Positions 32,733 to 53,481 of a stretch of 64,000 nt of DNA are shown here, one piece after another. The DNA lies in the NCBI RefSeq assembly GCF_002873335.1, contig NZ_MCUW01000019.1, forward strand, positions 17,156 through 81,155. The letters are read 5' to 3'. Below the pieces are notes generated by a model, which saw nothing but the letters and a program-made list of their open reading frames with translations, did no database searches and was not told the origin of the DNA. This DNA comes from Vibrio sp. 10N.286.49.B1 (GTDB taxonomy: Bacteria > Pseudomonadota > Gammaproteobacteria > Enterobacterales > Vibrionaceae). Position 1 is the first letter of the stretch. Every line of letters begins with the position of its first letter. The position numbers and the translations under genes were made by a program.

Positions 32733-32749
32733 TGCGACATTTTGTTAAA
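32733..32749. promoter_or_regulatory. Response-regulator operator candidate 1 (tup side)
   Basis: TGCGACA-TTT-TGTTAAA: the left arm matches the inferred dyad TGAGACA-N3-TGTCTCA at 6 of 7 positions; the right arm is weak. Confidence 0.45.
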
Positions 32750-32782
32750 AACTTTTGTAGGTCAACTACAATTAATTTGAGC

Positions 32783-32799
32783 TGAGACAAAATGTCGCA
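32783..32799. promoter_or_regulatory. Response-regulator operator candidate 2
   Basis: TGAGACA-AAA-TGTCGCA matches the inferred dyad at 13 of 14 positions. It lies between tupA and the regulator gene, about 80 bp upstream of the -24 box of tupA. Confidence 0.65.
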
Positions 32800-32827
32800 A
32801 TTCTAATAAGGATATTTTGACTCAGAT

Positions 32828-32844
32828 TGGTACACTCTGTCTCA
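32828..32844. promoter_or_regulatory. Response-regulator operator candidate 3
   Basis: TGGTACA-CTC-TGTCTCA has a perfect right arm and shares its GGTACA left arm with a site before the formate dehydrogenase operon. It lies just before the regulator gene, so autoregulation is possible. Confidence 0.55.
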
Positions 32845-32867
32845 AATAGGAATAATAACAAGTATTT

Positions 32868-34328
32868 ATGGCATTCTTTGACCCCTCAGAAAAAACACAG
32901 TCTCATGTTTCTCCTTATCTCGCGTTTTCGGCGTTAGTTGTCGACGATGAAGTAGGCATGCAAACCGTTCTTAAAAAAGCGCTCAGAAAAGCCTTTGGTC
33001 ATGTTGAAACCGCGGGCAGCGTTGAAGAAGCAGAGGAGTTAAGACTCAAACACCATTATGACCTCATCATTCTTGATATTAATTTGCCTGGCCGTTCTGG
33101 GATCGAATGGGAAGAAGCATTTAGTGATTTAGACCGTAAGGCCGACATCATTTTCATGACAGGTTATGCTGATTTGGACGTCGCAATTAGCGCGTTAAAA
33201 CTAGGCGCATCAGACTTCATATTAAAGCCATTTAATCTCCAGCAAATGTTACAAGCAGTACAACGCTGCATGGATAAGCGGCTAGCAGAACGAGTCACGG
33301 TGGCATTGAGTCACGATATTAGTCGAAGGGTATCAAAAGATTTAATCGGGTCTTCGGTCAAAACCACACAACTTAAACAGTTGATTAGTCAGTTCGCACC
33401 ATCTAAGGCGTCAGTTTTGATTGAGGGTGAGTCTGGCACGGGAAAGGAACTGGTGGCGCGTGGGCTTCATGATGCAAGTAAAAGACAGGGCCCTTATGTG
33501 GCCATAAATTGTGGTGCGTTGGCGCCTGAATTACTGGAAAGTGAGTTATTTGGCCATACTGCTGGTGCATTTACTGGGGCGAAAAAGAGTCGTGAAGGGT
33601 TGTTTCGGGTTGCAAGTGGTGGGACGTTATTTCTAGATGAGATTGGTGAAATGCCCTTAGCGATGCAGGCTTCACTGCTTCGCGTGTTAGAGCAACGCAC
33701 TGTGAGGCCAGTTGGAACTGAGCGAGAAGTCAGTATCGATGTTCGAGTTGTTGCTGCGACGAACCGAAATCTGCGACAACAAGTTGAACAGGGTAAGTTT
33801 AGACAAGATCTGTTCTATCGCTTGAACGTGTTGAAGATTGAAGTGCCATCGTTGCGCAGCCGATTGTCGGATTTAAATGAACTAGTGCCTTATTTAACAA
33901 GACGTTTAGCGAAAGAGCTGGGCGTGGTCGAGCCTAAATGGGCCCATGAAGATATGTTTGCGATGCAAGATTACGATTGGCCCGGTAATGTGCGGGAACT
34001 GAAAAATATGCTAGAGCGATGTATTTTACTCAATAAGCCTCCTGCTCATTATTTTAGAGAACTCAATGGGGGGCCGGTTAATGCTTCTATTACACTGTCT
34101 GCAAACGATATGTCGACCATGCCAGCCGCGGCTATTAATGGTGATGCACAATTTGGTTATCCAGATTCATGGTCGCTGAAAGATGTTGAAAAAGCGCATA
34201 TTCAACAAGTAATGGATTTTCACTCGGGTAACAAATCTGCAGCGTCGCGTGACTTGGGTGTCGCTCGGAAAACATTAGAGCGAAAATACAAAGAGTGGGA
34301 CGACAATGAGCTATCGAATGAAAGCTGA
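32868..34328 (+). CDS. NtrC-type sigma-54-dependent response regulator
   Basis: 486 residues. Receiver domain at about 18-130 with phosphoacceptor Asp in LIILDINLPG; AAA+ domain with Walker A GESGTGKE, the sigma-54 contact loop GAFTGA, and EIGEMPLAMQASLLRVLE; C-terminal Fis-type helix-turn-helix (SAASRDLGVARKTLERKY). It activates sigma-54 RNA polymerase from upstream sites. Divergent from tupABC, it overlaps its kinase by 23 nt. Repeated dyads at both tup and the formate dehydrogenase operon are its likely sites. Confidence 0.93.
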   Translation: MAFFDPSEKTQSHVSPYLAFSALVVDDEVGMQTVLKKALRKAFGHVETAGSVEEAEELRLKHHYDLIILDINLPGRSGIEWEEAFSDLDRKADIIFMTGYADLDVAISALKLGASDFILKPFNLQQMLQAVQRCMDKRLAERVTVALSHDISRRVSKDLIGSSVKTTQLKQLISQFAPSKASVLIEGESGTGKELVARGLHDASKRQGPYVAINCGALAPELLESELFGHTAGAFTGAKKSREGLFRVASGGTLFLDEIGEMPLAMQASLLRVLEQRTVRPVGTEREVSIDVRVVAATNRNLRQQVEQGKFRQDLFYRLNVLKIEVPSLRSRLSDLNELVPYLTRRLAKELGVVEPKWAHEDMFAMQDYDWPGNVRELKNMLERCILLNKPPAHYFRELNGGPVNASITLSANDMSTMPAAAINGDAQFGYPDSWSLKDVEKAHIQQVMDFHSGNKSAASRDLGVARKTLERKYKEWDDNELSNES

Positions 34329-36363
34329 TGGCAATATATTGAGCCGACTACGCTTTCGCACCCAAGCCATGGTGCGTTATCGTCTTCTGTTTCTCACCTC
34401 TGCACCGATTATTCTAACGTTGATTGCCATGTTTGCGATTACTGCGTATTGGTCAATTCACTATACGTGGCAAAGTGCCTTGGTGGATGTTGATGAGCGG
34501 CTCAACATCGTTACCGATAAGATGGAAAGCCTTCAGGTTGAGCAGTATGACCACCTGAAGGCATTTTCTGAGTCTTATGAATTTCGAACGCGTCTTATGC
34601 ATATTCAAACCGCTCAAGAGTTTGATGATTGGGTTAAAGCACAAAACCTTCGTTACCAACTTGATTATTTAAGATGGATCCCAGTAGACGTTGCCGTGTC
34701 AAAACCAACACAGAGCGAATCCGACGCTTATCGCCAGATGGCGAGCCAACGTTCATTTTTTGATGTACTTACCCGTGAAACTGCCTTTAATTTAGAGCCC
34801 CTGCTGTCTGAACACTCGGAGGTACGCCATCAAGACAATCATCGTCTAGAAACCCGTTCATTGGTCAGTCGTTCCGTTATTGCTGTTTATGACGATAGCA
34901 GTGCACTCATTGGTTATCTCGATGGCGGTGTACTTCTCAATAATAACTTGGGTTTGGTTGATATGATCCGCGATACCATTTATCCAGTATCCGACGAAGC
35001 TCATCATGTAAAAGGTACGGTCACGATTTTCTTAGATGATCTTCGAGTCGCCACCAATGTGCCTATTGAAGCCTCGTATCAAGGTAGAAGAGCGGTAGGG
35101 ACGATGGTCTCTGATTCGGTGAGTAAAAGTGTTCTTGAAGAGGGACATCGCTGGATCGATAACGCCTACGTCTATGACACATGGTACATCGCGGGCTACG
35201 ACCCGTTGCGCGATATCAACGATAACATTGTCGGTATTGTTTACACCGGCTATCGATCGTGGCCTTTGTTAAAAACCTATTTAACGAATTTAGGTGAGGT
35301 CACGGTATTAATTGTCAGTATCTTGTTTATCTCAGGGTTCATTGTGTATCGCGGTGCTAGAGGGTTATTTAAACCAATCGAACAAATTCATCGGGTGGTT
35401 AAAATGGTTCAGCTGGGTAAAGACGATGAGCGAATCGGGGATATAGGGCTCAACAATCAGCATGAATTGAGTCAGTTGGCTAAGCAGTTTGACAACATGC
35501 TAAATCAGCTTCAATTTCGAAACGAACAGATTCAAGAAGCCGCTCATGAACTTGAAGCAAAAGTGGCATCTCGAACCGCAAGCTTGAAAGAAAAAACGGA
35601 ACAGCTTGAGTTACATATCCACCTTTTGAATCAAACCAAAGACAAATTAATTGTTAATGAAAAGCTTGCGGCGTTGGGTGAATTGACCGCAGGCATTGCT
35701 CATGAGATCAATAACCCAACCGCGGTGATTTTAGGTAATGTCGAACTGTTGAAGTTCGAATTAGGTGAAAATTCGGCAGCGGTAGAAGAGGAAGTCGATG
35801 CGATTCTTGTTCAAATTGACCGAATTCGTAATATTACCCGCAGTTTGTTGCAATACAGCCGACAGGGGGGCGTTCAAGATGAAGTGACGTGGCAACACGT
35901 CAACCCGATTGTTGATGAGAGCGTCACCTTGGTAAGAACCGGCGCCAAGAAGCGGGGTATTGAGTTCTATGTCGACTTGCATGCCAAAACACCTGTTGAG
36001 ATCAATCGTCATCAACTATTACAGATATTAGTTAACTTACAAATGAACGCGATACATGCCATGCAAGGGAAAGGGCGCCTTACTGTTTTAAGTGAAGACT
36101 GGGTTGATGGTAAGGAACGTATTGGGGCACTGATTCATATTATTGATGAAGGCTGTGGAATATCTGATGTGAACTTAAAACGTATATTTGATCCATTTTT
36201 TACCACCAAACGAGATGGTACTGGGTTAGGTCTGTCCGTTTCTCAAAGTATATTGAGTCAGACAGGAGGAGAAATCAAAGTTATCTCTACGCTAGGGAAA
36301 GGCAGTCAATTTACCTTGTATCTTCCTAACAAGGCCGATCAGCATCTGCTGGTTAGTGGTTAG
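34306..36363 (+). CDS. Sensor histidine kinase paired with the sigma-54 regulator
   Basis: 685 residues. Two membrane helices (about 28-48 and 325-348) enclose a large periplasmic sensor of Cache-like build. A HAMP domain (GLFKPIEQIHRVV onward), a coiled coil, a HisKA helix with His in ELTAGIAHEINNPTA and a HATPase domain (GCGISD, FFTTKRDGTGLGLSV) follow. The signal is unknown; formate, tungstate or a redox cue are guesses from context. The stop codon lies within the second unit of a heptamer repeat. Confidence 0.93.
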   Translation: MSYRMKADGNILSRLRFRTQAMVRYRLLFLTSAPIILTLIAMFAITAYWSIHYTWQSALVDVDERLNIVTDKMESLQVEQYDHLKAFSESYEFRTRLMHIQTAQEFDDWVKAQNLRYQLDYLRWIPVDVAVSKPTQSESDAYRQMASQRSFFDVLTRETAFNLEPLLSEHSEVRHQDNHRLETRSLVSRSVIAVYDDSSALIGYLDGGVLLNNNLGLVDMIRDTIYPVSDEAHHVKGTVTIFLDDLRVATNVPIEASYQGRRAVGTMVSDSVSKSVLEEGHRWIDNAYVYDTWYIAGYDPLRDINDNIVGIVYTGYRSWPLLKTYLTNLGEVTVLIVSILFISGFIVYRGARGLFKPIEQIHRVVKMVQLGKDDERIGDIGLNNQHELSQLAKQFDNMLNQLQFRNEQIQEAAHELEAKVASRTASLKEKTEQLELHIHLLNQTKDKLIVNEKLAALGELTAGIAHEINNPTAVILGNVELLKFELGENSAAVEEEVDAILVQIDRIRNITRSLLQYSRQGGVQDEVTWQHVNPIVDESVTLVRTGAKKRGIEFYVDLHAKTPVEINRHQLLQILVNLQMNAIHAMQGKGRLTVLSEDWVDGKERIGALIHIIDEGCGISDVNLKRIFDPFFTTKRDGTGLGLSVSQSILSQTGGEIKVISTLGKGSQFTLYLPNKADQHLLVSG

Positions 36364-36406
36364 TGGTTAGTGGTTAGTGGTTAGTGGTTAGTGGTTAGTG
36401 GTTAGT
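36351..36406. repeat. Heptamer tandem repeat, eight copies
   Basis: GGTTAGT is repeated eight times without error, starting in the last codons of the kinase gene and running past its stop. Read on the other strand the unit is CACTAAC, close to the CACTACG/CACTAAG repeat at 51047. Confidence 0.97.
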
Positions 36407-36483
36407 GGGTGGTTAATAGCGACGACAACCATCCGTGATACACCTCAATAGAGTCACTCCGATAGCGCCACCTGACAACGTCG

Positions 36484-36963
36484 CTATCGGACACACTCTG
36501 TACTCCATTCCAGACGCATAACCAACTCGCCAGCAGGTATTAGCGACTCCTCTATGTTAATACGCGCTTTGATGCGGACGATTTGGTCTTCATTTAATTG
36601 TTGTTTTTCGATAACAACGCCATCGCGCCAGTAGTCAATATCACCTTCTATGACCTGGGGAAATTCGATTTGAAATCGAATACGTGACGAGGGAATGCGA
36701 GAAGAAATGTCACCAAAGTCCGCATGCTTTAATTTCAAACGAATACGGCCTTGTTTGCGGTTATTTTCGAGTCTCAATAGACTCTCTTGTCCGGTATAAT
36801 CTTGACCAAATGCTAGTTCACCGCCACTTTCCAACACTTCTACGCCACAGTGTTCTCGTACGTGTCCGCTAAAGTGTAAATCCCCAGATGGCGGGTTAGC
36901 ATAGCTCAATGACGAGTAGGCCCACATCAGTGCAGCAAATAACATTATTATTGTGTCTCTCAT
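36484..36963 (-). CDS. Secreted small protein, CG-motif paralogue (last gene of operon)
   Basis: 159 residues with a signal peptide ending SLSYA (about residue 22). The mature start FSGHVREHCGVEV with a downstream LAFGQDY, and a terminal WSTECVR, are shared with the product at 37.4-37.9 kb. One Cys near each end suggests a disulfide-closed beta-sandwich, as in pilin or coat-like subunits. No chaperone or usher gene is nearby. Fifth and last gene of a tight operon. Confidence 0.7.
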   Translation of the reverse strand: MRDTIIMLFAALMWAYSSLSYANPPSGDLHFSGHVREHCGVEVLESGGELAFGQDYTGQESLLRLENNRKQGRIRLKLKHADFGDISSRIPSSRIRFQIEFPQVIEGDIDYWRDGVVIEKQQLNEDQIVRIKARINIEESLIPAGELVMRLEWSTECVR

Positions 36964-36969
36964 TGTGTG

Positions 36970-37401
36970 TTACACCATAAGTTGAATAATGAAATCTCGA
37001 ATTGCTTGGTTAAGTGCTCGAATATCGCTCATGACTTGCTCATGTTGTGGGTTAACGCTATAGCCAGTTTTTATCGCCACTTGCTTTTTGTCATAGGTAT
37101 ATTCAACAACCGCATCACAATGAACAACGTCCTTATGATCCGCATCTGCGGTACGCGTATAATTAATCCGACTGGTTTTCGTCCCTGGCTCTATTAACGT
37201 CCAATCGATTAAATCACTGTGCGCCAGCGCATCAAACAATCTTCGTTCATGTGAATAAAGACCCTCATCACACACTAATTGATAGTGAGCGACTTGTTCA
37301 GGAGGTAAGGCCTGCGTAAGTGCACTGGCTTGAGCATTCGCATTAACCTGAGCGCAAACAGTGAAGGCAAGTGACGGAATGACAATGTGTGAGATTCTCA
37401 T
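36970..37401 (-). CDS. Secreted protein of the unknown five-gene operon
   Basis: 143 residues from the ATG at 37401, chosen for an AAGGAA SD; a longer frame begins inside the upstream gene. Signal peptide cleaved near VNANA. The mature part has two Cys (LVCDEG, VHCDAV), a beta-rich centre and a helical end with no known domain. Six bp separate it from the next gene. Confidence 0.65.
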   Translation of the reverse strand: MRISHIVIPSLAFTVCAQVNANAQASALTQALPPEQVAHYQLVCDEGLYSHERRLFDALAHSDLIDWTLIEPGTKTSRINYTRTADADHKDVVHCDAVVEYTYDKKQVAIKTGYSVNPQHEQVMSDIRALNQAIRDFIIQLMV

Positions 37402-37412
37402 TGTCTTATTCC

Positions 37413-37913
37413 TTACGAAATACAAAACGCTGTCCATTGAGTTTCTAGGACAATGTCATTTTTTGCCACCGCATCGGATTCATCAAGTGATACTTTGGCT
37501 CTGATATCAAGCTTTTGGCCGCCACCCAAGTCGTCATGATCGAACGTTTGTCCTATAAACCAAGTGTCGGCGGAGCCTTCTTTCTCTGTCTTGCCCGAGA
37601 CTTTGAAATAGAATTGTTCATTACTCATGGTCGATAGAAAGTCATCATTGTCATAGTCGAGATCACTGAGCTGTAAGATAATTTGCCCATCATGACTGTT
37701 GTTTACAATCTTGATTTTCGCTGCATCTTGGCCATAATCACCAAACCCCAAGGTACCGGTGTCTTCTTCCACTTCGATGCCACATTGTGATTCTACATTG
37801 GCTCTAAAAAAAACCTCACCGGTGTCGTCGTCAGCCGCAAAACAAACACTGCTGGTGACTAATGAAGTCATTAATAGGGTATTTTTCACATTAAGTACGT
37901 TACTTCGTTTCAT
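37413..37913 (-). CDS. Secreted small protein, CG-motif paralogue
   Basis: 166 residues with a signal peptide ending SSVCFA. The mature protein begins FFRANVESQCGIEVEEDTG followed by LGFGDYG, and ends LETQWTAFCIS. The spacing of the CG motif, the glycine-phenylalanine motif and the terminal Cys matches the last gene of the operon, so they are paralogues. Very acidic. A structural surface subunit is possible, but function is not shown. Confidence 0.7.
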   Translation of the reverse strand: MKRSNVLNVKNTLLMTSLVTSSVCFAADDDTGEVFFRANVESQCGIEVEEDTGTLGFGDYGQDAAKIKIVNNSHDGQIILQLSDLDYDNDDFLSTMSNEQFYFKVSGKTEKEGSADTWFIGQTFDHDDLGGGQKLDIRAKVSLDESDAVAKNDIVLETQWTAFCIS

Positions 37914-37916
37914 GTT

Positions 37917-38378
37917 CTACTCCGAGAATGATGTATTGGTTTGTTTCATGTTTAACAATCGGTGCTTTTCCGCTTCAATTTGAAGAAGCTTGAGTTCGTG
38001 CTCTGCTTGAGCGAGTTGTTCTTCTCGTTTACGTTGCAACATTTCATATTGATACAACTTGGTACAATCGATTCGATCCTCACCACCAAACTGAATGGTA
38101 ACGGCGGCATAAACGCCGCGGTCATCTTCGTTATAATAATTATGGTAAGGGTCATAGCCACTGCCGTCGTTATACTGATCGTCTGCACCGCTGCTGCCGT
38201 AAGTCCCAACTTGGAAAGTTTTTCCTGTTGAAACGGCTTGCTCGCACGTTGCTCCGCCCGTCGTCCTAATTCGGTCCGTTCCTGATGGGTTGGATACCGA
38301 GGGGATAGGGTTTGTAAACGCACTGTGTGAAAATATCAGTAGGCCAGCGCTAATTATGCGTTGAGTACTCATAATCAA
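37917..38378 (-). CDS. Secreted coiled-coil protein of the unknown five-gene operon
   Basis: 153 residues with a signal peptide ending SAFT. The mature region holds GGATCEQA, a Gly/Tyr/Asp-rich stretch, GVYAAVTIQFGG and RIDC, and then a charged C-terminal coiled coil (EEQLAQAEHELKLLQIEAEK). The Cys pair could close the globular part. It overlaps the first gene of the operon by 4 nt and precedes the next by 3 nt. Family not recognised. Confidence 0.65.
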   Translation of the reverse strand: MIMSTQRIISAGLLIFSHSAFTNPIPSVSNPSGTDRIRTTGGATCEQAVSTGKTFQVGTYGSSGADDQYNDGSGYDPYHNYYNEDDRGVYAAVTIQFGGEDRIDCTKLYQYEMLQRKREEQLAQAEHELKLLQIEAEKHRLLNMKQTNTSFSE

Positions 38379-38734
38379 TACCTTTTAAAGGTGAGCTGAG
38401 TGCATACTTCATAGGTATTTGGTGAGTCTGATACCATTTTCGTGCACACGTATTTTCGTGATGTTTTACCCGCGGGAGTATTGACAGTGATATCCAGATC
38501 AATTTCTTCATTAGCTCTTAATGGAATCTTGCTTGGGAACTGTTTGTCGTCAATGCGCAAAAAATAATTGGCATCGCTACTCGAGCGATTAAGTAATGTG
38601 AACTTGACTTGTGTTTTATCCGAATATGATTCGAATGATGTATTTTTCCATTTATGTACATTTGCACTGGCTGCGAAGGATGCAGTTAAAACAAGCAAAT
38701 AGAAAAATTTTAGGATTAAGCGCATTTTCATCAC
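38375..38734 (-). CDS. Secreted small protein, first gene of the unknown operon
   Basis: 119 residues with a signal peptide ending AASANV. The mature 95 residues look like one small beta-sandwich, with Cys in RKYVCTKM and YEVCTQL that could pair. Such a compact accessory domain recalls small chaperone-like proteins of fibre systems, but no match is claimed. Overlaps the next gene as ATGA. Confidence 0.6.
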   Translation of the reverse strand: MMKMRLILKFFYLLVLTASFAASANVHKWKNTSFESYSDKTQVKFTLLNRSSSDANYFLRIDDKQFPSKIPLRANEEIDLDITVNTPAGKTSRKYVCTKMVSDSPNTYEVCTQLTFKRY

Positions 38735-38930
38735 TCCCGTGGATAATAAAGAGGACGAATGTTAAAGCGATTGAGTGGATTTTAATTACCATTTTATGCC
38801 AACGAAAGAGATTAGCGCTTTTGATCTACGCTCGATACAAGGTGTTGAGACATTAAGTATTTCGATAGGTGTTGAGAGTAGAGTTGTGTCGACGACATAC
38901 TGAGTGAAGAAATATATCGCCGCTACAAGG

Positions 38931-39953
38931 CTAAGGAGTACGATTAACTTTATTTAAACTAAGGATGGTTTTTTGATACATTTTTGGCGTTAAGCCACTG
39001 ATTCGCTTGAACGAGCGAGAGAAATGAGAGATATCTGAATACCCCAGTTGGCTGGAAACATGGGTGAGTGATAATTCTTCTCCCATCATCTCGACAGCAA
39101 CGGTAAACAAAAGGTTGTCTTTTATTCGTCGAAAGCTTGTGCGTTCTTCATTTAACCTACGTTGCAGTGTTCGCGGACTCATTCCTAATAAAGCTGCAGA
39201 TTGCTCAAGCGTGAGATTATGTTCGCGCACGTACGGGAGTAACGACGTGAACACTTTATCCGTAAAATTGGCGTGCCAAGTAATTAGCGGTTCTTGGCGT
39301 TTAATATCTTGGCTTGATATTATGACGGGTTTGGCGAGAATTTCGTCTTCTAATAACAAAGCCATTTTATCGTTGCCAACAAAATATTGAATGCTGTCAC
39401 CAATCGTCGCGTTAAATACATCGACGTTTGTCGACTGAAGTTTAACTTGTGATGGTGTCCAGTCTGTTTTTGTTAACGCTCGAACGAATTCGATGCCATA
39501 CATTAATGCAAACACTTCTGACCAAGCATAAATGTCATCATCTTGAAACGGTTTGTGACGCCAATACCATGTACGTCCATAGGCCGTCTCAATGCCTGTC
39601 TTAGTACCAATGGAGTCGTATTGATAGATTGCTTCTGATGATACTAACGCATCATTCACGGTTGTGAAGTCTTTAAAAGCACCTAAGAGTTTTGGGATTA
39701 GCTTTTGCCTAATTGCTACCCTAAGGAGTTCACCAAAATTCGCCGTTCCCAATTGATTTGCCGATAAAAAAAGCAAACGACGTAACGGTTCAACAGGCAA
39801 GAATTCATTGTCTAAGTCATGTAGATCGGGTGGCAACCCTGATTCTTTAATGAGCTGGTGGGGGTCATAATCGTGTTCGGCGAGCAGTTCAATGATAATT
39901 CTGGCATAACCAGATTTGATCATAGGGACCTGCTCGTCAGTCGAATCGTTCAT
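38931..39953 (-). CDS. AraC-family transcriptional regulator
   Basis: 340 residues from the ATG at 39953 with AAAGGA upstream; the longer frame adds 22 unlikely residues. An N-terminal Arabinose_bd-type ligand domain (YARIIIELLAEHDYDPHQLI) precedes the double helix-turn-helix (SAALLGMSPRTLQRRLNEE and LSYSDISHFSRSFKRISG-like end). It is divergent from the HlyD/DUF2955 exporter genes and probably controls them. Confidence 0.9.
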   Translation of the reverse strand: MNDSTDEQVPMIKSGYARIIIELLAEHDYDPHQLIKESGLPPDLHDLDNEFLPVEPLRRLLFLSANQLGTANFGELLRVAIRQKLIPKLLGAFKDFTTVNDALVSSEAIYQYDSIGTKTGIETAYGRTWYWRHKPFQDDDIYAWSEVFALMYGIEFVRALTKTDWTPSQVKLQSTNVDVFNATIGDSIQYFVGNDKMALLLEDEILAKPVIISSQDIKRQEPLITWHANFTDKVFTSLLPYVREHNLTLEQSAALLGMSPRTLQRRLNEERTSFRRIKDNLLFTVAVEMMGEELSLTHVSSQLGYSDISHFSRSFKRISGLTPKMYQKTILSLNKVNRTP

Positions 39954-40236
39954 ATCAAATCCTTTACGAAAATATAATCTAATAATCGGCCGAGTGGCGG
40001 AAAATGGCAAATTTTTCATGTTAGTTCTTTTTAAAATTAAGCCATGTAAGGTTTTTTCGCTTTGTACGAACTAGAAAACAAAGCCTAATAAAAAGCTTAA
40101 TTATTCAATCGATTAACTATCTTAGTCTCGTATTTTAGTCTATATCTAATCTTAAATAGACAAACGATAACTGAGTAGTGCATGCGCGCACTGCATTATT
40201 GAGTGTTGTCTTTGGTAGTGGTGACAAGGAAGGAAA

Positions 40237-41385
40237 ATGAACGATAAAATCGATGCTGAGAAAGAGACTCAAGCAAAGCCTATTGAAAATACAAATGATG
40301 GCACTGGCCCTGTAAAAGATAACAGCCAACAACGAGTAAAAAAGATCACCAATGTATTAGTGGTCATCATTGTTGTGTCAGTGATTTTCAGTATTGTGTC
40401 AGATCGCATTATCCCATCGACCGATAATGCCCGAGTGAAAGGTTACGTAGTCCCGATAAAGCCTCAGGTGTCTGGTCAAGTGACCGATATCCTAGTAAGG
40501 CCAAACCAGCTCGTATCGCAAGGTGATGTATTAATTACACTTAACCCTGTGGACTACGACATTGCCGTAAAAAAAGCGGAGCAAGAACTTGAGATAGCCG
40601 GACAGAACGTCGGTGCTCAGACTGCGTCGATTGCTTCTGCACAAGCAAGGCTAACGAGTGCTATTGTTGAAAAAGATAACGTTGAGTTGCAAACGCGTCG
40701 CGTGTTAGCAATGGCGGAAAAAGGGGTGATATCCATCGCTGAAGCGGATAAGTCACGAGCAACCTTGGCCAGAGCACGCGCAAATGTCCAAAATGCGAAA
40801 GCAGACCTAGACAAGGAAAACAAACAACTGGGTACTTCGGGACAGGAAAATAGCCAAATAAAAGCAGCGCTATTAGCGCTTGAAACCGCGCAGTTAAACA
40901 GGGAGCGAACAGTCGTTCGAGCGCCCACTGATGGTGGCGTATCAAACTTTAGCCTATCACAAGGATTTTATGCATCAGCGGGCCAACCTGTGATGACATT
41001 TGTCTCAACAGAGTCTATCTGGATAGAAGCGTATTTTAGAGAAAACAGCTTAGGAAATATTAACGCCGGTGATGAGGTAGAAATAGCGTTGGACTTTGCA
41101 CCAGGGAAAGTAATAAAGGGCACAATATCAAGTGTGGACTGGGGCATTGATTGGGGGCAAGACAACCAAGCAGGAAAGCTGGCACAGGCGAATAACCAGA
41201 CAGGGTGGCTACGTCAGACTCAAATGTTACCGGTGATGATTGAATTCAACACCAACGATACGACTGGCCAGCTTCGTATTGGCGGGCAAGCGGATGTTAT
41301 TGTTTACACTGATGACAACACAATATTTAACACATTGGGCCGATTATGGATTCGATTTGTTAGTTGGATGTCTTATGTCAGATAG
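40237..41385 (+). CDS. HlyD-family membrane-fusion protein
   Basis: 382 residues. One membrane helix (about 40-60), then the biotinyl-lipoyl fold (GYVVPIKPQVSGQVTDILV), an alpha-helical hairpin (residues about 110-220) and the barrel domain with the RAPTDGGV return strand. This is the EmrA/AaeA type of adaptor that links an inner-membrane pump to an outer-membrane channel. The next gene starts 11 nt before its stop, so the pair is coupled. Confidence 0.92.
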   Translation: MNDKIDAEKETQAKPIENTNDGTGPVKDNSQQRVKKITNVLVVIIVVSVIFSIVSDRIIPSTDNARVKGYVVPIKPQVSGQVTDILVRPNQLVSQGDVLITLNPVDYDIAVKKAEQELEIAGQNVGAQTASIASAQARLTSAIVEKDNVELQTRRVLAMAEKGVISIAEADKSRATLARARANVQNAKADLDKENKQLGTSGQENSQIKAALLALETAQLNRERTVVRAPTDGGVSNFSLSQGFYASAGQPVMTFVSTESIWIEAYFRENSLGNINAGDEVEIALDFAPGKVIKGTISSVDWGIDWGQDNQAGKLAQANNQTGWLRQTQMLPVMIEFNTNDTTGQLRIGGQADVIVYTDDNTIFNTLGRLWIRFVSWMSYVR

Positions 41386-44421: not shown

Positions 44422-44916
44422 TTGAAAACCAAATTACTTTTTTTGACGACCGTATTAGCGTCGGGCACTGCTTTGGCAAATGCTGACGGAAACAACAAGG
44501 TATATTTTGATACACAAATTGCTCATCAATGTGGCGTGTCGGTAACAGATGAATCTGGAACGATTGGCGACTACAATCAAGCAAAGGGGTATAGCGCAGA
44601 AGATGACCCGGCCAGCGCCGATATCATCAATAACGCCAGTAAAATGGTTACAGTATCGACAACGGTTGATTACCAAGAGGGGAGTCTTACTGATGAAGAT
44701 AAAAACCCTTTATTTAATTGGACGGTTGTGGATACCAAAAGTGGCCAAATGATCGATAGCGGAATTCTAAGCAGTGCAAGTTTTGATTTTGATGTTCCAA
44801 GGGTTAAGAACGCAACGAATATTGAAATTTATGTCAATCAAAATGGCGAAGACAAGCTAACAGCCGGTACTCATATAGTTCAGTTTTCAATGAATGTCTT
44901 TTGTGTAAGTTCATAA
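44422..44916 (+). CDS. Secreted small protein, CG-motif paralogue
   Basis: 164 residues from a TTG at 44422, with AGAGG 8 nt upstream; the longer frame begins inside the preceding hairpin. Signal peptide ends GTALA. The mature start VYFDTQIAHQCGVSVTDESG and terminal FSMNVFCVSS repeat the CG and end-Cys pattern of the operon at 36.5-38.7 kb, so it is a distant paralogue. Highly acidic. Unknown function. Confidence 0.7.
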   Translation: MKTKLLFLTTVLASGTALANADGNNKVYFDTQIAHQCGVSVTDESGTIGDYNQAKGYSAEDDPASADIINNASKMVTVSTTVDYQEGSLTDEDKNPLFNWTVVDTKSGQMIDSGILSSASFDFDVPRVKNATNIEIYVNQNGEDKLTAGTHIVQFSMNVFCVSS

Positions 44917-44943
44917 GAAAAAACTGAATTGTGAGGCATGACT

Positions 44944-45039
44944 ATGATTATTAATTATCGAATACAAGATATCGAAGAGCTTTGGCTTCATATCGATCTT
45001 GCGGCGCATCTTCAAACTAAATTAAGGCATGTATCATAG
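44944..45039 (+). CDS. Possible 31-residue peptide
   Basis: An ATG at 44944 with GTGAGG 7 nt upstream opens a short frame, MIINYRIQDIEELWLHIDL followed by 12 more residues. It starts 27 nt after the preceding secreted-protein stop. The sequence could form an amphipathic helix. Coding status is uncertain. Confidence 0.3.
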   Translation: MIINYRIQDIEELWLHIDLAAHLQTKLRHVS

Positions 45040-45040
45040 G

Positions 45041-45814
45041 TTAAAAACTGAATGCCCAGCCTAGCATAGGGCCCTTTTGAGTCACATCGACCTCAACCGG
45101 GCCTTTATTACTATCGGTCGTATTTTGGATATTTAGGTAACGATAGCCAAACCAAATATTGTTCAATTTACTTAACCGATAGGTACCCGCTAAGTTGATA
45201 CCACGATTGACATCATTGTCACCAACAACGCTGGTGTCTACCGTCAAACTAATCCCCCAATCTTCGTTGAAGCGATGCTGATATTTGAGTCCAATCAGCC
45301 AATCAAATTGATGCCCTTTAGCGACAATCGTACCACTTTTGTCATTCCAAAACGGGCGATCGCTATTGGGGGCCACATCGACCTTGATATTGCTGTAGGT
45401 GTGGCGAACACCGGATAACAATACCAGTCCTTTGGTTACCTCATACCCACCGAACGCATCATTGAGCGACATCTGAGCATCTAACGCTATATTGAAGCTT
45501 GGTACAAGGATGCCCGCTTGTGTGGATGAATCGTTTTTTACATGCAAATAGTTCGCCCGAATGCCAAACAACCATTTATTCTTTTGAGCGTAAAAGTCAC
45601 CCATTAAACCAAAATGGAGATTATCCACGATATTATCAAAAGGAATATCGATATTGACCTTGTCACCTGCGGGCCCAGTTGTACCCGTAATGCTTGGTGC
45701 CCAAATCATCGGGAAAACTAACAAATACTGCCATTCGTCACTTTTGCGGTTAGAAAGAGCCATCTGGGACGTAAATAATAATGACAAAATCAAACCCCAT
45801 TGAAATATGCGCAT
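45041..45814 (-). CDS. Outer-membrane beta-barrel protein
   Basis: 257 residues with a signal peptide ending QMALS. Repeating amphipathic strands and a terminal GWAFSF are typical of a barrel of about 10 to 12 strands. It resembles uncharacterised proteobacterial porin-like proteins. It converges on the small secreted-protein gene; its own function is unknown. Confidence 0.75.
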   Translation of the reverse strand: MRIFQWGLILSLLFTSQMALSNRKSDEWQYLLVFPMIWAPSITGTTGPAGDKVNIDIPFDNIVDNLHFGLMGDFYAQKNKWLFGIRANYLHVKNDSSTQAGILVPSFNIALDAQMSLNDAFGGYEVTKGLVLLSGVRHTYSNIKVDVAPNSDRPFWNDKSGTIVAKGHQFDWLIGLKYQHRFNEDWGISLTVDTSVVGDNDVNRGINLAGTYRLSKLNNIWFGYRYLNIQNTTDSNKGPVEVDVTQKGPMLGWAFSF

Positions 45815-45926
45815 GGTTATTCCTTTAATTATGCGTGATGTAAATACCGAATTTATGTCGTATAGACATTAACCCCAGCGATAGTGTCTAGTTTCAACAA
45901 CGTGAGTAATTCGTCGACGTTGCCCG

Positions 45927-46820
45927 TTAATCTTGCATTCGATTGGTGCTATGCACGGCGATTTGTGGCGCATTAATGTTATGTTTACGAAACTCGTCAA
46001 TCACTCTCAAAGTGATATCGGTTTCGAATAGCTTTTCATAGGCAGTATCGACAACATAGGCTTTGCAGGTTAGTTGAACCGCAAGGTAATTGTCCGTGAT
46101 GGTTTGTTTCACTAGCACTGTCACTGGCTTGGGTAGGTGAATATAACGGCTTGAAGACGCCGCTTCTTGAATCAGGTTTCGAGCCTTTACGATGTCTTCA
46201 TTCATTCCAACATAAAATGGAATTACCACTTGCATGTCGAGTGCACCGTAGTTACCACTGACCGTCACCTCATTTAAAAACATGTTGTTTGGGATCGTAA
46301 TGATGTCATCATTCAGCGTTCGCATCCTCACTGAGCGCAATCCGATGGTGGTAATGTCACCGTAATTACCCTCAAACGTGACGCGGTCACCTACTTGAAA
46401 GGGGCGGTCAATCATTACGGTTAGCCCTGCGATAAACGATGCCGCTAAGTCCTTCAAGGCAAACCCCACGGAGACCGCGAGCGTGCCGCCGATAAGCGCA
46501 AGAATGTGGTCATTAATGCGGAAACTGAGCATGAAGACGAGTAAACCTGCAGTCATGTAGATAAAAAACTGCAAGAACGATTGGAATTTTTGCAACAGCA
46601 TTCGATATTGAACAAACTGTCCACCAATGCTATCCACCATTGAGTTCATGAATTTTATTAAGATCCAAGTTCCCATTATGATGAGCACACTAAAAATCAC
46701 ACCTGACCAACGGATCAAATTGGTAAACTGTGTAATGTTTTCAACCGAGGCCATCGTATCTTCGCCGTATACGACACTTGGCGCTAACAGAAGGGCGATG
46801 ACAGGAATACACTTTTTCAT
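45927..46820 (-). CDS. Small-conductance mechanosensitive channel, MscS family
   Basis: About 297 residues with a signal-like N-terminus and three membrane helices. The pore and beta domain are diagnostic: VGFALKDLAASFIAGLTVMI, then RPFQVGDRVTFEGNYGDI and IPNNMFL. It would release osmolytes on hypo-osmotic shock. The start at 46820 is set by AAAGGG upstream. It follows the large NTPase gene by 14 bp, so they share an operon. Confidence 0.93.
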   Translation of the reverse strand: MKKCIPVIALLLAPSVVYGEDTMASVENITQFTNLIRWSGVIFSVLIIMGTWILIKFMNSMVDSIGGQFVQYRMLLQKFQSFLQFFIYMTAGLLVFMLSFRINDHILALIGGTLAVSVGFALKDLAASFIAGLTVMIDRPFQVGDRVTFEGNYGDITTIGLRSVRMRTLNDDIITIPNNMFLNEVTVSGNYGALDMQVVIPFYVGMNEDIVKARNLIQEAASSSRYIHLPKPVTVLVKQTITDNYLAVQLTCKAYVVDTAYEKLFETDITLRVIDEFRKHNINAPQIAVHSTNRMQD

Positions 46821-46834
46821 AAACATAACCCTTT

Positions 46835-49183
46835 TTATTTAACCAGCAAATGTTGACGATCAAGTACGTTAGTAATGTGTCTGAACCAATGATCGGACAC
46901 TCTCGCTTTATCTTCCGTCCACTCAATGTATCCTCGGCTTTGAAAGTAACGCAGTGTCCCAATAACCTCAGAGAGGGTTAATTGGGTACAGTCTGAAAGG
47001 TCATCAGGCGATGCCGCTTCGAGTTGCACAATTGAACGCAATATTGCGAGCATAGGTTTCGGCATTTTTTCGAGCTCTTCTGATTCAGGGGCGTGGAAGA
47101 GGCGAACGACCACGCTGTCGTCCGTTTTATTTCTTCGAAGTGATAAGCGAAAGAATCGGAGAGCAACCGTTGGGTTACCATCTGAATAGTGCCAAAGAAT
47201 ACGGTAGAAACCTTGTCGAGCACGTTCTTCCTCTGTCTCACTGTCGTTATCCCATTGCTTTGGGACGACCAGCCCGTCAAAGCTTAATGGATTGTCAATT
47301 TCTCGATTAATCCGCGTATCAAGTAACTGCTGAACTTGGGTTTCATTCCAGCGAGGCAAAAAGGCCACCCAGTCGAAGAGCAGGCGCTCGCCGCGAGCGC
47401 GATCGACGAATCGCCAACTGGCTTTTTCAATGGCAAACACAGCGCGATGGTTTTTCTTTGAACGACGCAGTAAATTTGTAAATCTGATCAAATCATTCAA
47501 TCCACCAACCTTGGGTTTGACAAGCCTTTGGCAATTATCAATAGCAATGAGGTAGGGGATCTCACTCTTGCGCAAGAGTGTCAGGATTTTTACCTCACTG
47601 GTGTCGGGTTCTAAACCTAAGCTAATGGCGACCTCGGTCAATAAATCGTTATATCCCGCGAGTGGGCAATTAATATAAATAGGTTCAGCGTTTTTCGTTC
47701 GATGAAGGAGTTGTTTCAGCAGACTTGTCGCGCCAACCCCTCGTTCTCCAGTGACAACGCATATTGCTGGATTCTCAGTGAGCAGGTACTGAGAGAGCTG
47801 TTTTATTTCGCTTTGGGCATAATCAATCAACGGACTCGTTTCATTACCTGGCAAGATAAATTCGAACGCTTCACTACCTTTAATACGTACTAGATTTTGG
47901 TCGCCGTTGGTACCTGTTTGCTTCGCGACTTCTATCTTAAATAAATAAGTAAGCGCCTGATTGAAAAATGCATTGCGCGATAGCAATCCTGTCGTTCGGT
48001 TCTTAAGGTTATGAAAAGTAAGCCAGACTGTCGCAATGGCTGTGGCGATGATTCCCAGTAAGAAAGCATCTTTTTTTCGAGATGCCCAAACGATGATCAA
48101 TGGCTTTTCGGTGACTCGTTCAAGTGAACGGAATACTGTTGGTTTCCACATTACTATGACGGTTAGCGTTATAAATGCGAACCAGAAAGAAAACGCGCTG
48201 ACAATCCAATAGTAAATGGTACCTTTGCCGAGTGTTTCTGATGATATTTGCAGCACGACACCAGCTAAGATAAAACTCCAAACATAACGACGAATGGTAG
48301 ACAGACGCAAGGCTACAATTTCTGGACTCGACGCCAGGCTATTACGGTGAGCAAACTCAAGAATGAAGCTGATGGCAATCGATCCTCCTAACACCCACCA
48401 CGTAAATATCTCTAAATAAATTAGGTGTTCTAAAGCCTCTATAGTGGTTAAAACTCGCAGTGACAGCGTGATTGCTATTAACCATGCGATGGCTCGGCTT
48501 GCACGGCCAATGTACCAAATAAGTCGAATCCAAATAGGAGGATTCGAGATGTTAGAAGTGACATGATTTTTGAACTGCTCAAATAAACGTTTTTGATTGG
48601 CAAGCCACCACATCAATAATGAATAGATAAAAAAGACTTTTATCCCAGCCCAAATGACTGGGATAGGGGAAATAAAAATCTCTTTTATCAGCGTCTTTAA
48701 GCTGATGAATTGCAAAAACACAAAATATTCAACATTGAGGGTGGTAAGTTTAAGCTCTTGTTTAAACTGAGTGACACCATCTGGACCAAAGCCGGTGAGT
48801 TGATCTCGAGTTCGCTCGGACGCCAAATCAAGTAAACGTTGTTTGCTGTGGCTGAGGCTTACTAACGAGAGGTAGCGACTTTCTACAACAAGCCATCGTT
48901 CTTCTTTATTATCGGTGCTCTCACGGTAGGCATTCAGCGCGTCATCAAAAGCGACTATTTCGTCATCCTGCAAGTCGAGCGCAACAGACAACAGTTGACG
49001 AATTTTATTTCTATCATTTGCAGTTAAAAATAACGAACTCGGAAAAGAAGCCACTTCTCTATCTAAGTCGATGGCGCTTTGTGAAAGTACGGGTGTGCTT
49101 TCATCTTGGTAATCCCATTTGGCAAATGCTGAAGCGCACCCAAGGGACAGGAATAACGAGAAAAGGAGGATGAGCTTTTTCAT
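46835..49183 (-). CDS. Membrane-anchored AAA/STAND-like NTPase with degenerate P-loop
   Basis: About 782 residues. A signal peptide (SAFA) and a helical periplasmic region (to about 165) lead into six or so membrane helices (about 180-400). A cytoplasmic NTPase domain follows, and then a winged-helix-like C-terminus. The Walker A reads GERGVGATS, with Ala for the invariant Lys; Walker B is YLIAIDNCQ. It is therefore likely a weak or non-hydrolysing nucleotide sensor. Co-transcribed with MscS, it may gate or regulate the channel; that is inference. Confidence 0.75.
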   Translation of the reverse strand: MKKLILLFSLFLSLGCASAFAKWDYQDESTPVLSQSAIDLDREVASFPSSLFLTANDRNKIRQLLSVALDLQDDEIVAFDDALNAYRESTDNKEERWLVVESRYLSLVSLSHSKQRLLDLASERTRDQLTGFGPDGVTQFKQELKLTTLNVEYFVFLQFISLKTLIKEIFISPIPVIWAGIKVFFIYSLLMWWLANQKRLFEQFKNHVTSNISNPPIWIRLIWYIGRASRAIAWLIAITLSLRVLTTIEALEHLIYLEIFTWWVLGGSIAISFILEFAHRNSLASSPEIVALRLSTIRRYVWSFILAGVVLQISSETLGKGTIYYWIVSAFSFWFAFITLTVIVMWKPTVFRSLERVTEKPLIIVWASRKKDAFLLGIIATAIATVWLTFHNLKNRTTGLLSRNAFFNQALTYLFKIEVAKQTGTNGDQNLVRIKGSEAFEFILPGNETSPLIDYAQSEIKQLSQYLLTENPAICVVTGERGVGATSLLKQLLHRTKNAEPIYINCPLAGYNDLLTEVAISLGLEPDTSEVKILTLLRKSEIPYLIAIDNCQRLVKPKVGGLNDLIRFTNLLRRSKKNHRAVFAIEKASWRFVDRARGERLLFDWVAFLPRWNETQVQQLLDTRINREIDNPLSFDGLVVPKQWDNDSETEEERARQGFYRILWHYSDGNPTVALRFFRLSLRRNKTDDSVVVRLFHAPESEELEKMPKPMLAILRSIVQLEAASPDDLSDCTQLTLSEVIGTLRYFQSRGYIEWTEDKARVSDHWFRHITNVLDRQHLLVK

Positions 49184-49433
49184 GATTCTGCACACTGCCT
49201 GTAACTGACTGTAAAAATTAGTATTGTCTAACGCTATATAGTGTAGTTAGCCTAAACGGACTCTGCTCGTCTTGGCTGTAGAAAATTGAAAATGCGTGAC
49301 TTTTGCATTAGAAATGATGAGTTAATCGCCGGTTTGTCAGTAAAAGCTTTAGTGGTCATTACTTTGCTGCTTGCAACCAAGGCAAACTTTATGTACGGTT
49401 GCGCAGTTTTGTTCATTCTCAAAGGTAACGCTT

Positions 49434-51026
49434 GTGCTCTCAACCGCTAATATCACTCAACAGTTCGGTGCAAAACCACTGTTTGAAAATATTTCAATCA
49501 AATTTGGTGACGGTAACCGTTATGGCCTAATCGGTGCGAACGGCTGTGGTAAATCCACATTTATGAAAATTCTAAGTGGTGAGCTCGAGCAAACCAGCGG
49601 CACGGTTTCTTGCGATCCAAATGAGCGCGTTGCTAAATTGAACCAAGACCAGTTTGCTTATGAAGAGTTCTCTGTTGTTGACACGGTTATCATGGGGCAC
49701 AAAGAGCTTTGGAACATCAAGAAAGAGCGCGACCGTATTTATTCTTTGCCAGAAATGAGCGAAGAAGACGGCATGAAAGTCGCGGATCTTGAGGTTGAGT
49801 TTGCAGAACTTGACGGTTACATGGCGGAGTCGAAAGCAGGCGAATTATTGCTAGCCGTGGGTATTCCACTTGAGCAGCACTACGGTTTAATGAGTGAGGT
49901 TGCACCAGGTTGGAAACTACGTGTTCTATTGGCTCAAGTCTTGTTTGCAGACCCGCATATCATGCTTCTTGATGAACCAACGAACAACTTGGATATGGAC
50001 ACCATTCGCTGGTTGGAGCAAACGCTTAACCAACGTAACTGTACGATGATCATCATCTCGCATGACCGTCATTTCCTAAATAGTGTTTGTACACACATGG
50101 CTGACTTGGATTACGGCGAGCTTCGCGTGTATGCGGGTAACTATGACGAATACATGTTTGCGGCGACTCAAGCTCGTGAACGTCTACTGTCTGATAATGC
50201 CAAGAAGAAAGCGCAAATTGCTGAACTTCAAACGTTTGTTTCTCGTTTCTCTGCTAATGCGTCTAAAGCTAAGCAAGCTACGTCTCGAGCGAAGCAAATT
50301 GATAAGATTCAACTCGATGAAGTGAAGGCGTCAAGCCGTCAAAACCCATTTATTCGTTTTGAGCAAGAGAAAGAACTGTTCCGTAACGCGTTAATTATTG
50401 AAGATCTTTCTAACGGCTTTGACGACGTACTATGGTCTGACTTTAATGCTATCTTCGAAGTGGGTGAGCGTGTTGCTATCATTGGTGAGAATGGCGTGGG
50501 TAAAACCACCTTGTTGAACACGTTGTCAGGCGCGGTAGAACCAAAATCAGGGACGTTTAAATGGTCTGAGAACTCAAACATTGGTTACTACGCACAAGAC
50601 CATGCTCATGATTTTGCTGAAGATCTAAACCTAACAGATTGGATGGGACAATGGCGTCAAGAAGGCGACGATGAGCAGGTTGTTCGTAGCTTCCTTGGCC
50701 GTATGTTGTTTAGCCAAGATGACATCAAAAAGTCAGTGAAAGTCCTGTCTGGTGGTGAGCAAGGTCGTATGCTGCTTGGTAAATTAATGATGCATAAACC
50801 AAACATGTTGTTGATGGACGAACCAACCAACCACATGGATATGGAATCTATTGAATCACTTAACTTAGCGCTTGAAAACTACAAGGGCACGTTGCTGTTT
50901 GTTTCTCACGACAGACAATTTGTATCCTCATTGGCGACGCGTATCATTGAAATCAAAGACAATAAGATCATCGATTTTAAAGGTACGTACGAAGAATACT
51001 TAAAAATGCGTGGTGTAGACGCGTAA
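49434..51026 (+). CDS. ybiT: ABC-F ATPase YbiT
   Basis: 530 residues from a GTG at 49434 with AAAGG 8 nt upstream; E. coli YbiT is also 530. Two ABC domains: Walker [10 protein letters not shown] and GENGVGKTT, signatures [11 protein letters not shown] and LSGGEQGR, Walker [15 protein letters not shown] and [11 protein letters not shown], with the linker between them. No membrane segments: a ribosome-binding translation factor, not a transporter. A heptamer repeat and a strong terminator follow. Confidence 0.95.
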
Positions 51027-51046
51027 GCGTTGGATTGAAGCTGATT

Positions 51047-51086
51047 CACTACGCACTACGCACTACGCACTAAGCACTAAGCACTA
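51047..51086. repeat. Heptamer tandem repeat, five and a half copies
   Basis: CACTACG three times, CACTAAG twice, then CACTA. It lies 21 bp after the ybiT stop and before its terminator. The unit shares CACTA with the repeat at 36351 read on the opposite strand. Confidence 0.95.
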
Positions 51087-51096
51087 GTACAAATAC

Positions 51097-51134
51097 AAAA
51101 AGAGGCAGCCAATAGCATTGGCTGCCTCTTTTTT
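51097..51134 (+). terminator. Rho-independent terminator of ybiT
   Basis: GAGGCAGCCAAT pairs with ATTGGCTGCCTC around AGC, flanked by A- and T-runs, so it can also act on the minus strand for fdhD. Confidence 0.92.
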
Positions 51135-51154
51135 AATGGATAAAGACTTGTCTG

Positions 51155-51979: not shown

Positions 51980-52133
51980 GCATCGTGTCCTTTTTTCTAG
52001 GGTAACTTATCTAGTGTAGCGCCTTGTAGGATGAGCTTGTTAACTTCATCCTGTTGGCTTGATTATTGCTTCGTAATTAGGAATTAGCAAATGAAATGAA
52101 TTAGCAATTTAAGTGCCAATGTGGGGACGCTGA

Positions 52134-52643: not shown

Positions 52644-53361
52644 TTTTATTTCGCGTTGGTCGCAACGCAAACTCGACTCAGAGCAAGAAGAGAGCCTCTC
52701 ATCTCATGACGTGGTTAATGAGGTGATTGAAGCAGACGGTAGTGTGCATGATGCTCCGGAATCATCTATCGAAACACAAGGTCCGGCTTCAAGCGCGGCG
52801 GATGTGGACGAGGAGGCGCTGAATAACAACATAGATTTAGACGATAATGCAGAGTCAGCACTCGATGATGATGTGGCCGTTGAATCTTTATCTATGTCAG
52901 AATTAATGTCAAAAACGGGACTGGATAAAGCCGCCAAAAAGGCGGCCCTAAGAAAGATGTTTTTGAGCCCAGAGTTTAATGTGGTTGACCGCCTTAATGA
53001 TTATGATCATGACTATGCCTCGGTGAAGCCCTTAGCCGCGGGCGTTGCTGATACATTACGTCAATGGATTAACAAGGTCGAGGAGTTGGATGCTGATGAG
53101 GAAGTGGAAGAAACCGAGACTCAAACCCCTGAGCTTTTAGATGATTCAGGCAACAAGGATAACGCTTCATTTGTAGGTGATCATGCTGACGAAAGTTGTC
53201 CGTTAAAGGGTGATAACAGCAACGATAGTAACAGTAGTACCGCTAGTAACAGTAGCAACGATAACAACAGTGACGCGCATGCTACCGATACGGAAGGCAA
53301 TGAAACCTTAATATCCGATGATCGGTCACCGTCGGTTGGTGCTGTTGATCGTGAGCGTTAA
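52633..53361 (+). CDS. DUF3306 family protein
   Basis: 242 residues from a GTG at 52633 (KNSFISRWSQRK), overlapping DUF3305; the longest frame is not believed. The DUF3306 core is the N-terminal FISRWSQRKLD plus the AALRKMFLSPEFNVVDRLNDYD segment. The middle and C-terminus are very acidic, with a Ser/Asn-rich low-complexity run from AAC/AGT codon repeats (about 53210-53270). Likely works with DUF3305 in formate dehydrogenase assembly. Confidence 0.88.
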   Translation: MKNSFISRWSQRKLDSEQEESLSSHDVVNEVIEADGSVHDAPESSIETQGPASSAADVDEEALNNNIDLDDNAESALDDDVAVESLSMSELMSKTGLDKAAKKAALRKMFLSPEFNVVDRLNDYDHDYASVKPLAAGVADTLRQWINKVEELDADEEVEETETQTPELLDDSGNKDNASFVGDHADESCPLKGDNSNDSNSSTASNSSNDNNSDAHATDTEGNETLISDDRSPSVGAVDRER

Positions 53362-53402
53362 ACATCCATAAAGAGACGCGCTTGCACTATTAAGTGCTTG
53401 AT

Positions 53403-53419
53403 TGAGACAATATTTACCA
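53403..53419. promoter_or_regulatory. Response-regulator half-site (fdh side)
   Basis: TGAGACA-ATA-TTTACCA: perfect left arm of the inferred dyad, poor right arm. First of three sites before the dehydrogenase operon. Confidence 0.4.
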
Positions 53420-53429
53420 CACAAAAAAT

Positions 53430-53446
53430 AGGTACATTTTGTCTCA
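53430..53446. promoter_or_regulatory. Response-regulator operator candidate (fdh side)
   Basis: AGGTACA-TTT-TGTCTCA: perfect right arm; the GGTACA left arm repeats that of the site at 32828-32844. Confidence 0.55.
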
Positions 53447-53464
53447 GTCGGTAAATGATATAAC

Positions 53465-53481
53465 TAAGACAAAATGTCTCA
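53465..53481. promoter_or_regulatory. Response-regulator operator candidate, strongest (fdh side)
   Basis: TAAGACA-AAA-TGTCTCA matches the inferred dyad at 13 of 14 positions, about 95 bp upstream of the sigma-54 -24 element, a normal enhancer distance. Confidence 0.65.

Follow-up and report, generated by a model that had tools for sequence, protein, structure and literature searches.

FhlA of enterobacteria is a sigma-54 activator tied to formate metabolism and to formate dehydrogenase (FDH); it is not a response regulator, and formate is sensed inside the cell. Vibrios have an FDH operon that needs RpoN, since in a V. parahaemolyticus rpoN mutant VP1510-VP1515 are down (log2 -3.2 to -4.8) and VP1510 is marked as an RpoN target by chromatin immunoprecipitation (ChIP) in V. 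cholerae (PMC9817140); the accessible text of that paper names no activator for this FDH and contains neither tungst- nor molybd-. Here we analysed a 64-kb stretch of a Vibrio genome (the window; the genome has 5,149,300 bases in 89 contigs), in which the genes of an NtrC-type response regulator (32868..34328, + strand) and of an overlapping sensor histidine kinase (34306..36363, +) are divergent to tupA-tupB-tupC-mobA and a mobB-moeA fusion (together, the tup side), and in which the dyad TGAGACA-N3-TGTCTCA is found upstream of both the tup genes and an FDH operon. We propose that this dyad is very probably the upstream activator site of the adjacent regulator, which would switch on the tup and FDH operons, a proposal that does not include the ligand of the kinase.

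All six dyad places described in the earlier note for the two regulatory regions are present. The main tup dyad (site II, 32783..32799, TGAGACA-AAA-TGTCGCA), the proposed activator site, and the main FDH dyad (53465..53481, TAAGACA-AAA-TGTCTCA) each match the consensus at 13 of 14 positions, and are the only sites of the 5.15-Mb genome with at most one mismatch. In the second tup dyad (site III, 32828..32844, TGGTACA-CTC-TGTCTCA, 12 of 14), whose end lies 23 bp ahead of the start of the regulator gene, and in the middle FDH dyad (53430..53446, AGGTACA-TTT-TGTCTCA, 11 of 14), the right arm is perfect and the left arm is of the GGTACA type. The two remaining places had been called half-sites: the one at 32733..32749 (site I, TGCGACA-TTT-TGTTAAA, 10 of 14) is a weak site, recognisable in just three of 23 aligned regions (those of the window, L006 and L008), whereas the distal FDH dyad at 53403..53419 (TGAGACA-ATA-TTTACCA, 11 of 14), 62 bp away from the main dyad, is a full site: its second arm, TTTACCA, complements TGGTAAA and so belongs to the GGTA type seen at 32828 and 53430. 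Several relatives have a similar site at 61-62 bp upstream. The motif was refined to TGRGACA-WWW-TGTCYCA, in which the spacer is A/T.

Each dyad set is located upstream of a sigma-54 promoter that the earlier note had not located: the tupA promoter at 32704-32689 (-), TGGCAT-TGTCT-TTGCT (TGGCATTGTCTTTGCT), 81 bp from the core of site II, and the FDH operon promoter at 53573-53589 (+), TTGGAACAAAAATTGCA. The pattern TGGNAYN5TTGC has seven sites in all on both strands of the window. A good sigma-54 site, TGGCACTTAAATTGCT at 52103-52118 (-), faces fdhD with no dyad nearby; the window and 8 of 15 other loci have a sigma-54-like site upstream of fdhD, its distance varying between loci, and a dyad scoring at least 9 is absent from the 600 bp upstream of fdhD in all 16 loci (one, L038, reaches 8.5). 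A further sigma-54 site, TGGAATGGATTTTGCT at 61606-61621 (+), lies upstream of an ammonium transporter gene at 61731, as expected for nitrogen control.

The genome-wide tests were pattern searches, and the raw consensus is unconvincing by itself: with up to three mismatches it gives 7 matches in the window against 3.0 expected (at least 7 in 6 of 100 shuffles) and, with up to two, 12 sites in the genome against 7 for the reversed pattern, so that we rejected the plain consensus at two to three mismatches as too loose for genome searches. A symmetric matrix was built from 53 distinct best sites of orthologous regions, the window and its two nearest kin being excluded; its training sites were picked by the reported dyad (up to three mismatches), so the training was not blind, and the window remained unseen. 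The matrix ranks 32783, 53465, 53430, 53403 and 32828 as 1-5 in the window, followed by 1668 (6) and 32733 (7). At a score of at least 9, six positions fall in the two regulatory regions (521 positions) and one in the rest of the window.

A matrix-free composite pattern, GACANNNTGTC-N68-98-TGGNAYN5TTGC, was searched in 118 Vibrio genomes, giving 137 listed matches, whereas the reversed control gives 3. FDH accounts for 74 of the matches and tup for 48, together 122 of 137, and 15 lie elsewhere. The refuting outcome named in the earlier note for its reading of the sites, many matches elsewhere without a sigma-54 link, was thus not observed, and the genome under study has two composite matches, both at the reported places. 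At FDH the composite is present in 74 of the 82 genomes that have both the regulator and the FDH iron-sulfur (Fe-S) gene, and in none of those with the Fe-S gene only (0/8), the regulator only (0/6) or neither (0/22); at tup it is present in 48 of the 82 and in no other class, the N68-98 range missing loci with a 61-bp gap. Among the 15 matches elsewhere, one is the tup promoter of a fragmented genome (G097), and another lies in the fdhD region of G007, alone among the 118 genomes in having a composite there; the other 13 (seven with GACAACCTGTC and gap 87, five with GACATRGTGTC and gap 90, and a single one in G028, gap 87) look, as a group, like conserved coding DNA. Taken alone, the degenerate dyad occurs 2.0 times per genome on average in 81 genomes with regulator and FDH (G091 excluded), where the control gives 0.3; the corresponding values are 1.17/0.5 in the 6 regulator-only, 0.5/0.5 in the 8 Fe-S-only and 0.82/0.5 in the 22 genomes with neither. 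In G091, two contigs carry roughly a dozen copies of TAAGACAGTTTGTCCCA, which probably belong to a repeated element. In the genome under study, a third exact degenerate dyad (C4:50049) sits inside a TetR-type gene, with no sigma-54 link seen, its surroundings not having been scanned for sigma-54 sites. Similar palindromes recur in other Vibrio genomes: close variants (TACGACAAGATGTCGTA) of TAAGACATCTTGTCGTA, the palindrome inside a TetR-type gene at L186 1501-1517, turn up in several of them.

The gaps between dyad and promoter step by about a helical turn at both operons. In the 74 FDH composites they are 72-75 (57 cases), 82-86 (14) or 94-95 (3), with none at 76-81 or 87-93; in the tup set (47 tup-regulator regions, the window plus 46 named loci with both genes), the main dyad and a tupA-directed sigma-54 site are present in 47/47, with core-promoter gaps of 61 (11 regions), 70-73 (8), 80-85 (17) and 91-95 (9), and two odd values, 122 and 206, for which the nearest match probably does not represent the promoter. 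To the right of site II, the highest-scoring site is exactly 45 bp off in 42 regions and 57 bp off in 5 Aliivibrio loci; the 45-bp spacing of this site III, which in the window reads TGGTACACT..., is constant in the 42 regions though the DNA between has diverged. Site III is weak in a few regions (lowest score 1.9), and in 36 of the 47 it holds GGTACACT, resembling an extended -10; it may also overlap the regulator's own promoter and tune the regulator gene. No clear sigma-70 promoter was found when one was looked for at the regulator gene, with such autoregulation through site III in mind.

Across the 118 genomes, the FDH Fe-S gene is found in 90, TupA in 90 and a regulator match (E <=1e-140) in 88. 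For each of the 90 Fe-S genes, the 700 bp ahead of it were scanned: the 82 regulator-bearing FDH regions all have a dyad scoring at least 19.0, a result that is partly circular, as most of them trained the matrix. In seven of the eight Fe-S genomes without a regulator match, neither a dyad (highest score 7.4) nor a sigma-54 match is present upstream of FDH, and nothing exceeds 7.4 in the whole tupA-FDH interval. In these seven Vibrio genomes (L188-L194), which have no regulator match, tupA is directly beside fdhD; to judge from their sequence, their FDH must be under another mode of control. In several genomes the tupA reading frame has an internal stop, and in L023, L036, L038 and L111 the regulator gene is frameshifted or broken, decay and sequencing error not being told apart in either case.

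The regulator is an NtrC-family response regulator (a bacterial enhancer-binding protein) by its domains, its motifs and the -24/-12 promoters downstream of its proposed sites: the Pfam matches Response_reg (88.0 bits), Sigma54_activat (232.9) and HTH_8 (37.4, a Fis-type helix-turn-helix) are all over cut-off, and the translation holds a GAFTGA loop, a Walker A GESGTGKE and LIILDINLPG with the receiver phospho-acceptor Asp. Its closest named relatives are in V. methylphosphonaticus and V. qingdaonensis (89%). We rejected NtrC itself (NR-I equivalog; 374.5 bits in NCBIfam against a cut-off of 558.6) and FhlA (224.8 against 830, AAA+ part only). The recognition helix could be read in 82 of 86 regulator loci (some genomes counted twice): LGVARKTLERK is found in 80, all with an upstream dyad scoring at least 16.1, and LGVSRKTLDRK in the other two, L125 (14.7) and L046 (-7.4). 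The latter is a regulator-kinase pair without tup and without a dyad, and its sigma-54 site precedes an ammonium transporter gene. Adjacency, co-occurrence, joint absence from seven genomes and the constant recognition helix argue strongly for the view of the earlier note, namely that the dyads would be binding sites of the adjacent regulator; no paper showing direct regulator-dyad binding turned up in the literature searched.

Order-wide, a regulator match (E <=1e-120) was found in 52 of 295 genomes, 30 of them returned as loci, and the scan beyond Vibrio covered 13 of these (L113-L125). A second family of the order, presumably Aeromonas-like, retains dyad and promoter at a regulator identity of 63-65%: ten loci of this family (f2) have tupA, a sigma-54 promoter and a dyad scoring 25.7, and the dyad scores 22.7 in two loci (L123, L124) from another of its genera. 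The sites of L125, which we take to be Shewanella-like, are weaker (14.7 and 10.4).

Formate is the likely signal, because the sensor domain of the kinase is closest to formate-bound sCache domains. This periplasmic domain is an sCache_3_3 domain, and its best structural matches by Z are the formate-bound 8py1 and 8py0 (15.6 and 15.5; next 13.2), which also come first and second in the profile search of the PDB (E 0.0012 and 0.0017; next 0.085). Arg247 and Thr250 are found in 28/28 sequences and Thr266 in 27/28, with Ser in one; these residues were tentatively mapped on the formate-contacting R142, T145 and T158 of PacF from their spacing, which is +3/+19 in the kinase and +3/+16 in both PacF and 8py0, and at the Arg the local alignment of HMMER deviates from this mapping by two columns. 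We regard the chance that periplasmic formate is the ligand and inducing signal of the kinase as about even.

From the sites, the promoters, their conservation and spacing, the co-occurrence with the regulator and the constancy of the recognition helix, all read directly, we infer regulator binding and activation, with formate as ligand, as follows. Periplasmic formate, most likely, would be sensed by the sCache_3_3 domain, and the stimulated kinase would phosphorylate the regulator, which would then bind the dyads about 60-95 bp upstream of the two sigma-54 promoters. Activation would proceed by looping, as suggested by the NtrC-type domain order, the phased spacing and the sigma-54 promoters. 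One target would be tupABC-mobA, for tungstate import and attachment of the cofactor nucleotide (MGD), probably together with mobB-moeA; the other would be the FDH operon, with its Fe-S protein, chaperone and subunits, and so the substrate would order the enzyme and its metal supply together. As a whole, the picture is tentative, and we give it slightly less than an even chance: a formate-sensing two-component system, conserved in Vibrio, Aliivibrio and the Aeromonas-like family and more weakly in the Shewanella-like genome, would use one dyad to tie the import of tungsten and the assembly of the cofactor to the synthesis of a periplasmic FDH.

Several observations weigh against this picture. 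The exact composite is missing at 8 of 82 FDH and 34 of 82 tup regions (the 61-bp tup class lying outside N68-98); the species are related, so genome counts are not independent events, and the seven regulator-less genomes fall in two TupA identity groups (61-63% and 55-57%), so that the joint absence of regulator and dyad represents perhaps one or two events. G097 has an FDH dyad (27.2) and no regulator match, which we read as an assembly gap, this genome being 94% complete in 210 contigs and having the tup module. In an electrophoretic mobility shift assay RpoN did not shift the VP1510 (FDH) promoter, and the authors call the RpoN effect indirect in the accessible text (PMC9817140). On the side of the signal, the formate domains rank 6-9 by Foldseek E-value, and the Arg-to-Ala mutant of Atu0526 bound formic acid more tightly, with signalling lost (PMC8698456). 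In V. cholerae, one study lists a ChIP peak at VC1522/VC1523 for AphA, a quorum regulator (PMC6855506), so other regulators act at this region too.

Chance palindromes, to which the poor performance of the plain consensus at up to three mismatches in the window might point, have a practically negligible probability, since the dyad is kept in 47/47 tup and 82/82 FDH regions of regulator-bearing genomes; this conservation is partly circular through the matrix training, and the composite count, which uses patterns only and is free of that circularity, together with the other comparative data refutes chance. Tungstate-responsive repressors are known elsewhere, and a different factor (a molybdate/tungstate sensor or a global anaerobic regulator) could bind the dyad, the adjacent regulator being a mere neighbour, as adjacency alone is no proof of a link and the AphA report (PMC6855506, seen in part) concerns the same region. 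We consider this quite improbable, given that regulator and dyad are jointly absent from seven genomes that keep both target operons, that sigma-54 promoters at helically phased spacing need an AAA+ activator, and that the recognition helix is constant together with the dyad. Somewhat less remote, yet still unlikely, is that the dyads are repressor sites, or that site III serves autoregulation of the regulator only: the position of site III, 23 bp before the regulator start, and the presence of GGTACACT in 36 of 47 regions would fit, whereas the main sites, about 61-95 bp upstream of the sigma-54 promoters and helically phased, have the normal position of activator sites.

With regulator and sites as proposed, the kinase could also sense tungstate or molybdate scarcity, the redox state or another carboxylate. 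This is a sizeable possibility, though one we place below even; against it stand the formate-bound sCache domains, which top all matches by Z and lead the profile searches, and the conservation of Arg247 and Thr250 (invariant in 28/28) and of Thr266 (27/28).

On the minus strand, the tup side comprises genes for a tupA-like tungstate-binding protein (31794..32639), a tupB-like permease (31093..31794) and a tupC-like ATPase (30218..30940, assigned by position, its family assignment being generic), followed by mobA (29656..30240), which overlaps tupC, and, downstream of it, the mobB-moeA fusion (27697..29481), whose cotranscription is putative. In TupA, the segments ATTTSTYHSG, SRGDDSGTHK and TDRGT align with 5my5 and 3lr1, with the TTTS motif and the Arg/Thr/Asp oxyanion site, residues taken from the available part of PMC5517513; the NCBIfam equivalog cut-off is not reached (239.8 against 400 bits), and the gene is therefore named tupA-like. 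The FDH operon starts at 53655, about 17 kb past the kinase, with fdhD and DUF3305/DUF3306 genes before it, and encodes on the plus strand an Fe-S protein (53655..55319), a TorD-type chaperone (55328..55954), the catalytic subunit (56197..59127), which has a twin-arginine signal and, at the catalytic position, a Cys (ARICHS), an FDH3 beta subunit (59139..59747) and a gamma (cytochrome b) subunit (59760..60818). The approximately 15 kb between kinase and fdhD (36364-51154) hold genes for an AraC-type regulator and HlyD-type, DUF2955, PLD, MscS, AAA and ABC-F-like proteins, and four small genes without a Pfam match; in L039 and L040 the kinase directly adjoins fdhD.

Published data, each source being available in part, agree in part with the model. 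The conserved pair corresponds by gene order to VP1502/VP1503 in V. parahaemolyticus, which are listed as NtrC-family partners and linked in STRING to the ABC genes VP1498/VP1499 (PMC10469919); the homologue VP1501 is classed as TupA (PMC5517513), and VC1522 is the V. cholerae regulator. In a V. cholerae riboflavin study, VC1510-VC1518, VC1523 and VC1524 are listed together as raised, VC1524 in one column only (PMC5816637), and VC1523/VC1524 we take, from gene order, to be the tupA/tupB homologues. In the literature searched, which covered few subscription papers, we found no assigned function for VP1502/VP1503 or VC1522, nor the motif, its pairing with the regulator, or a link by which a probable formate sensor would couple FDH with the uptake of tungstate. 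The present analysis gives this conserved Vibrio pair a candidate job and signal, a predicted binding motif and two promoters; if true, it names the activator behind the RpoN-dependent FDH of vibrios and connects the uptake of tungsten with the respiration of formate, as a testable example of metal acquisition driven by the substrate.

The mechanism itself is of a known kind. The regulator shares with NtrC, ZraR and DctD the receiver, the GAFTGA-bearing AAA+ domain, the Fis-type helix-turn-helix and dyads upstream of -24/-12 promoters, and differs from them in the dyad and in the regulon, which here comprises tungstate import and FDH, with a kinase whose sensor is of the Cache type and formate-like. 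The predicted sigma-54 control of FDH has its counterpart in V. parahaemolyticus and V. cholerae, whose FDH operon needs RpoN (accessible text of PMC9817140), and, compared with the FhlA formate regulon, a membrane kinase and tungstate import are involved here. The transporter has the TTTS, SRGD, SGTH and TDRG segments of TupA but stays below the NCBIfam equivalog cut-offs and is under putative two-component sigma-54 control. The sensor domain, finally, has the fold of 8PY0, 8PY1, PacF and Atu0526 and, by our tentative mapping, their Arg-x-x-Thr ... Gly-Thr pattern, whereas those proteins are chemoreceptors and the present one, a histidine kinase, has an additional N-terminal insertion.

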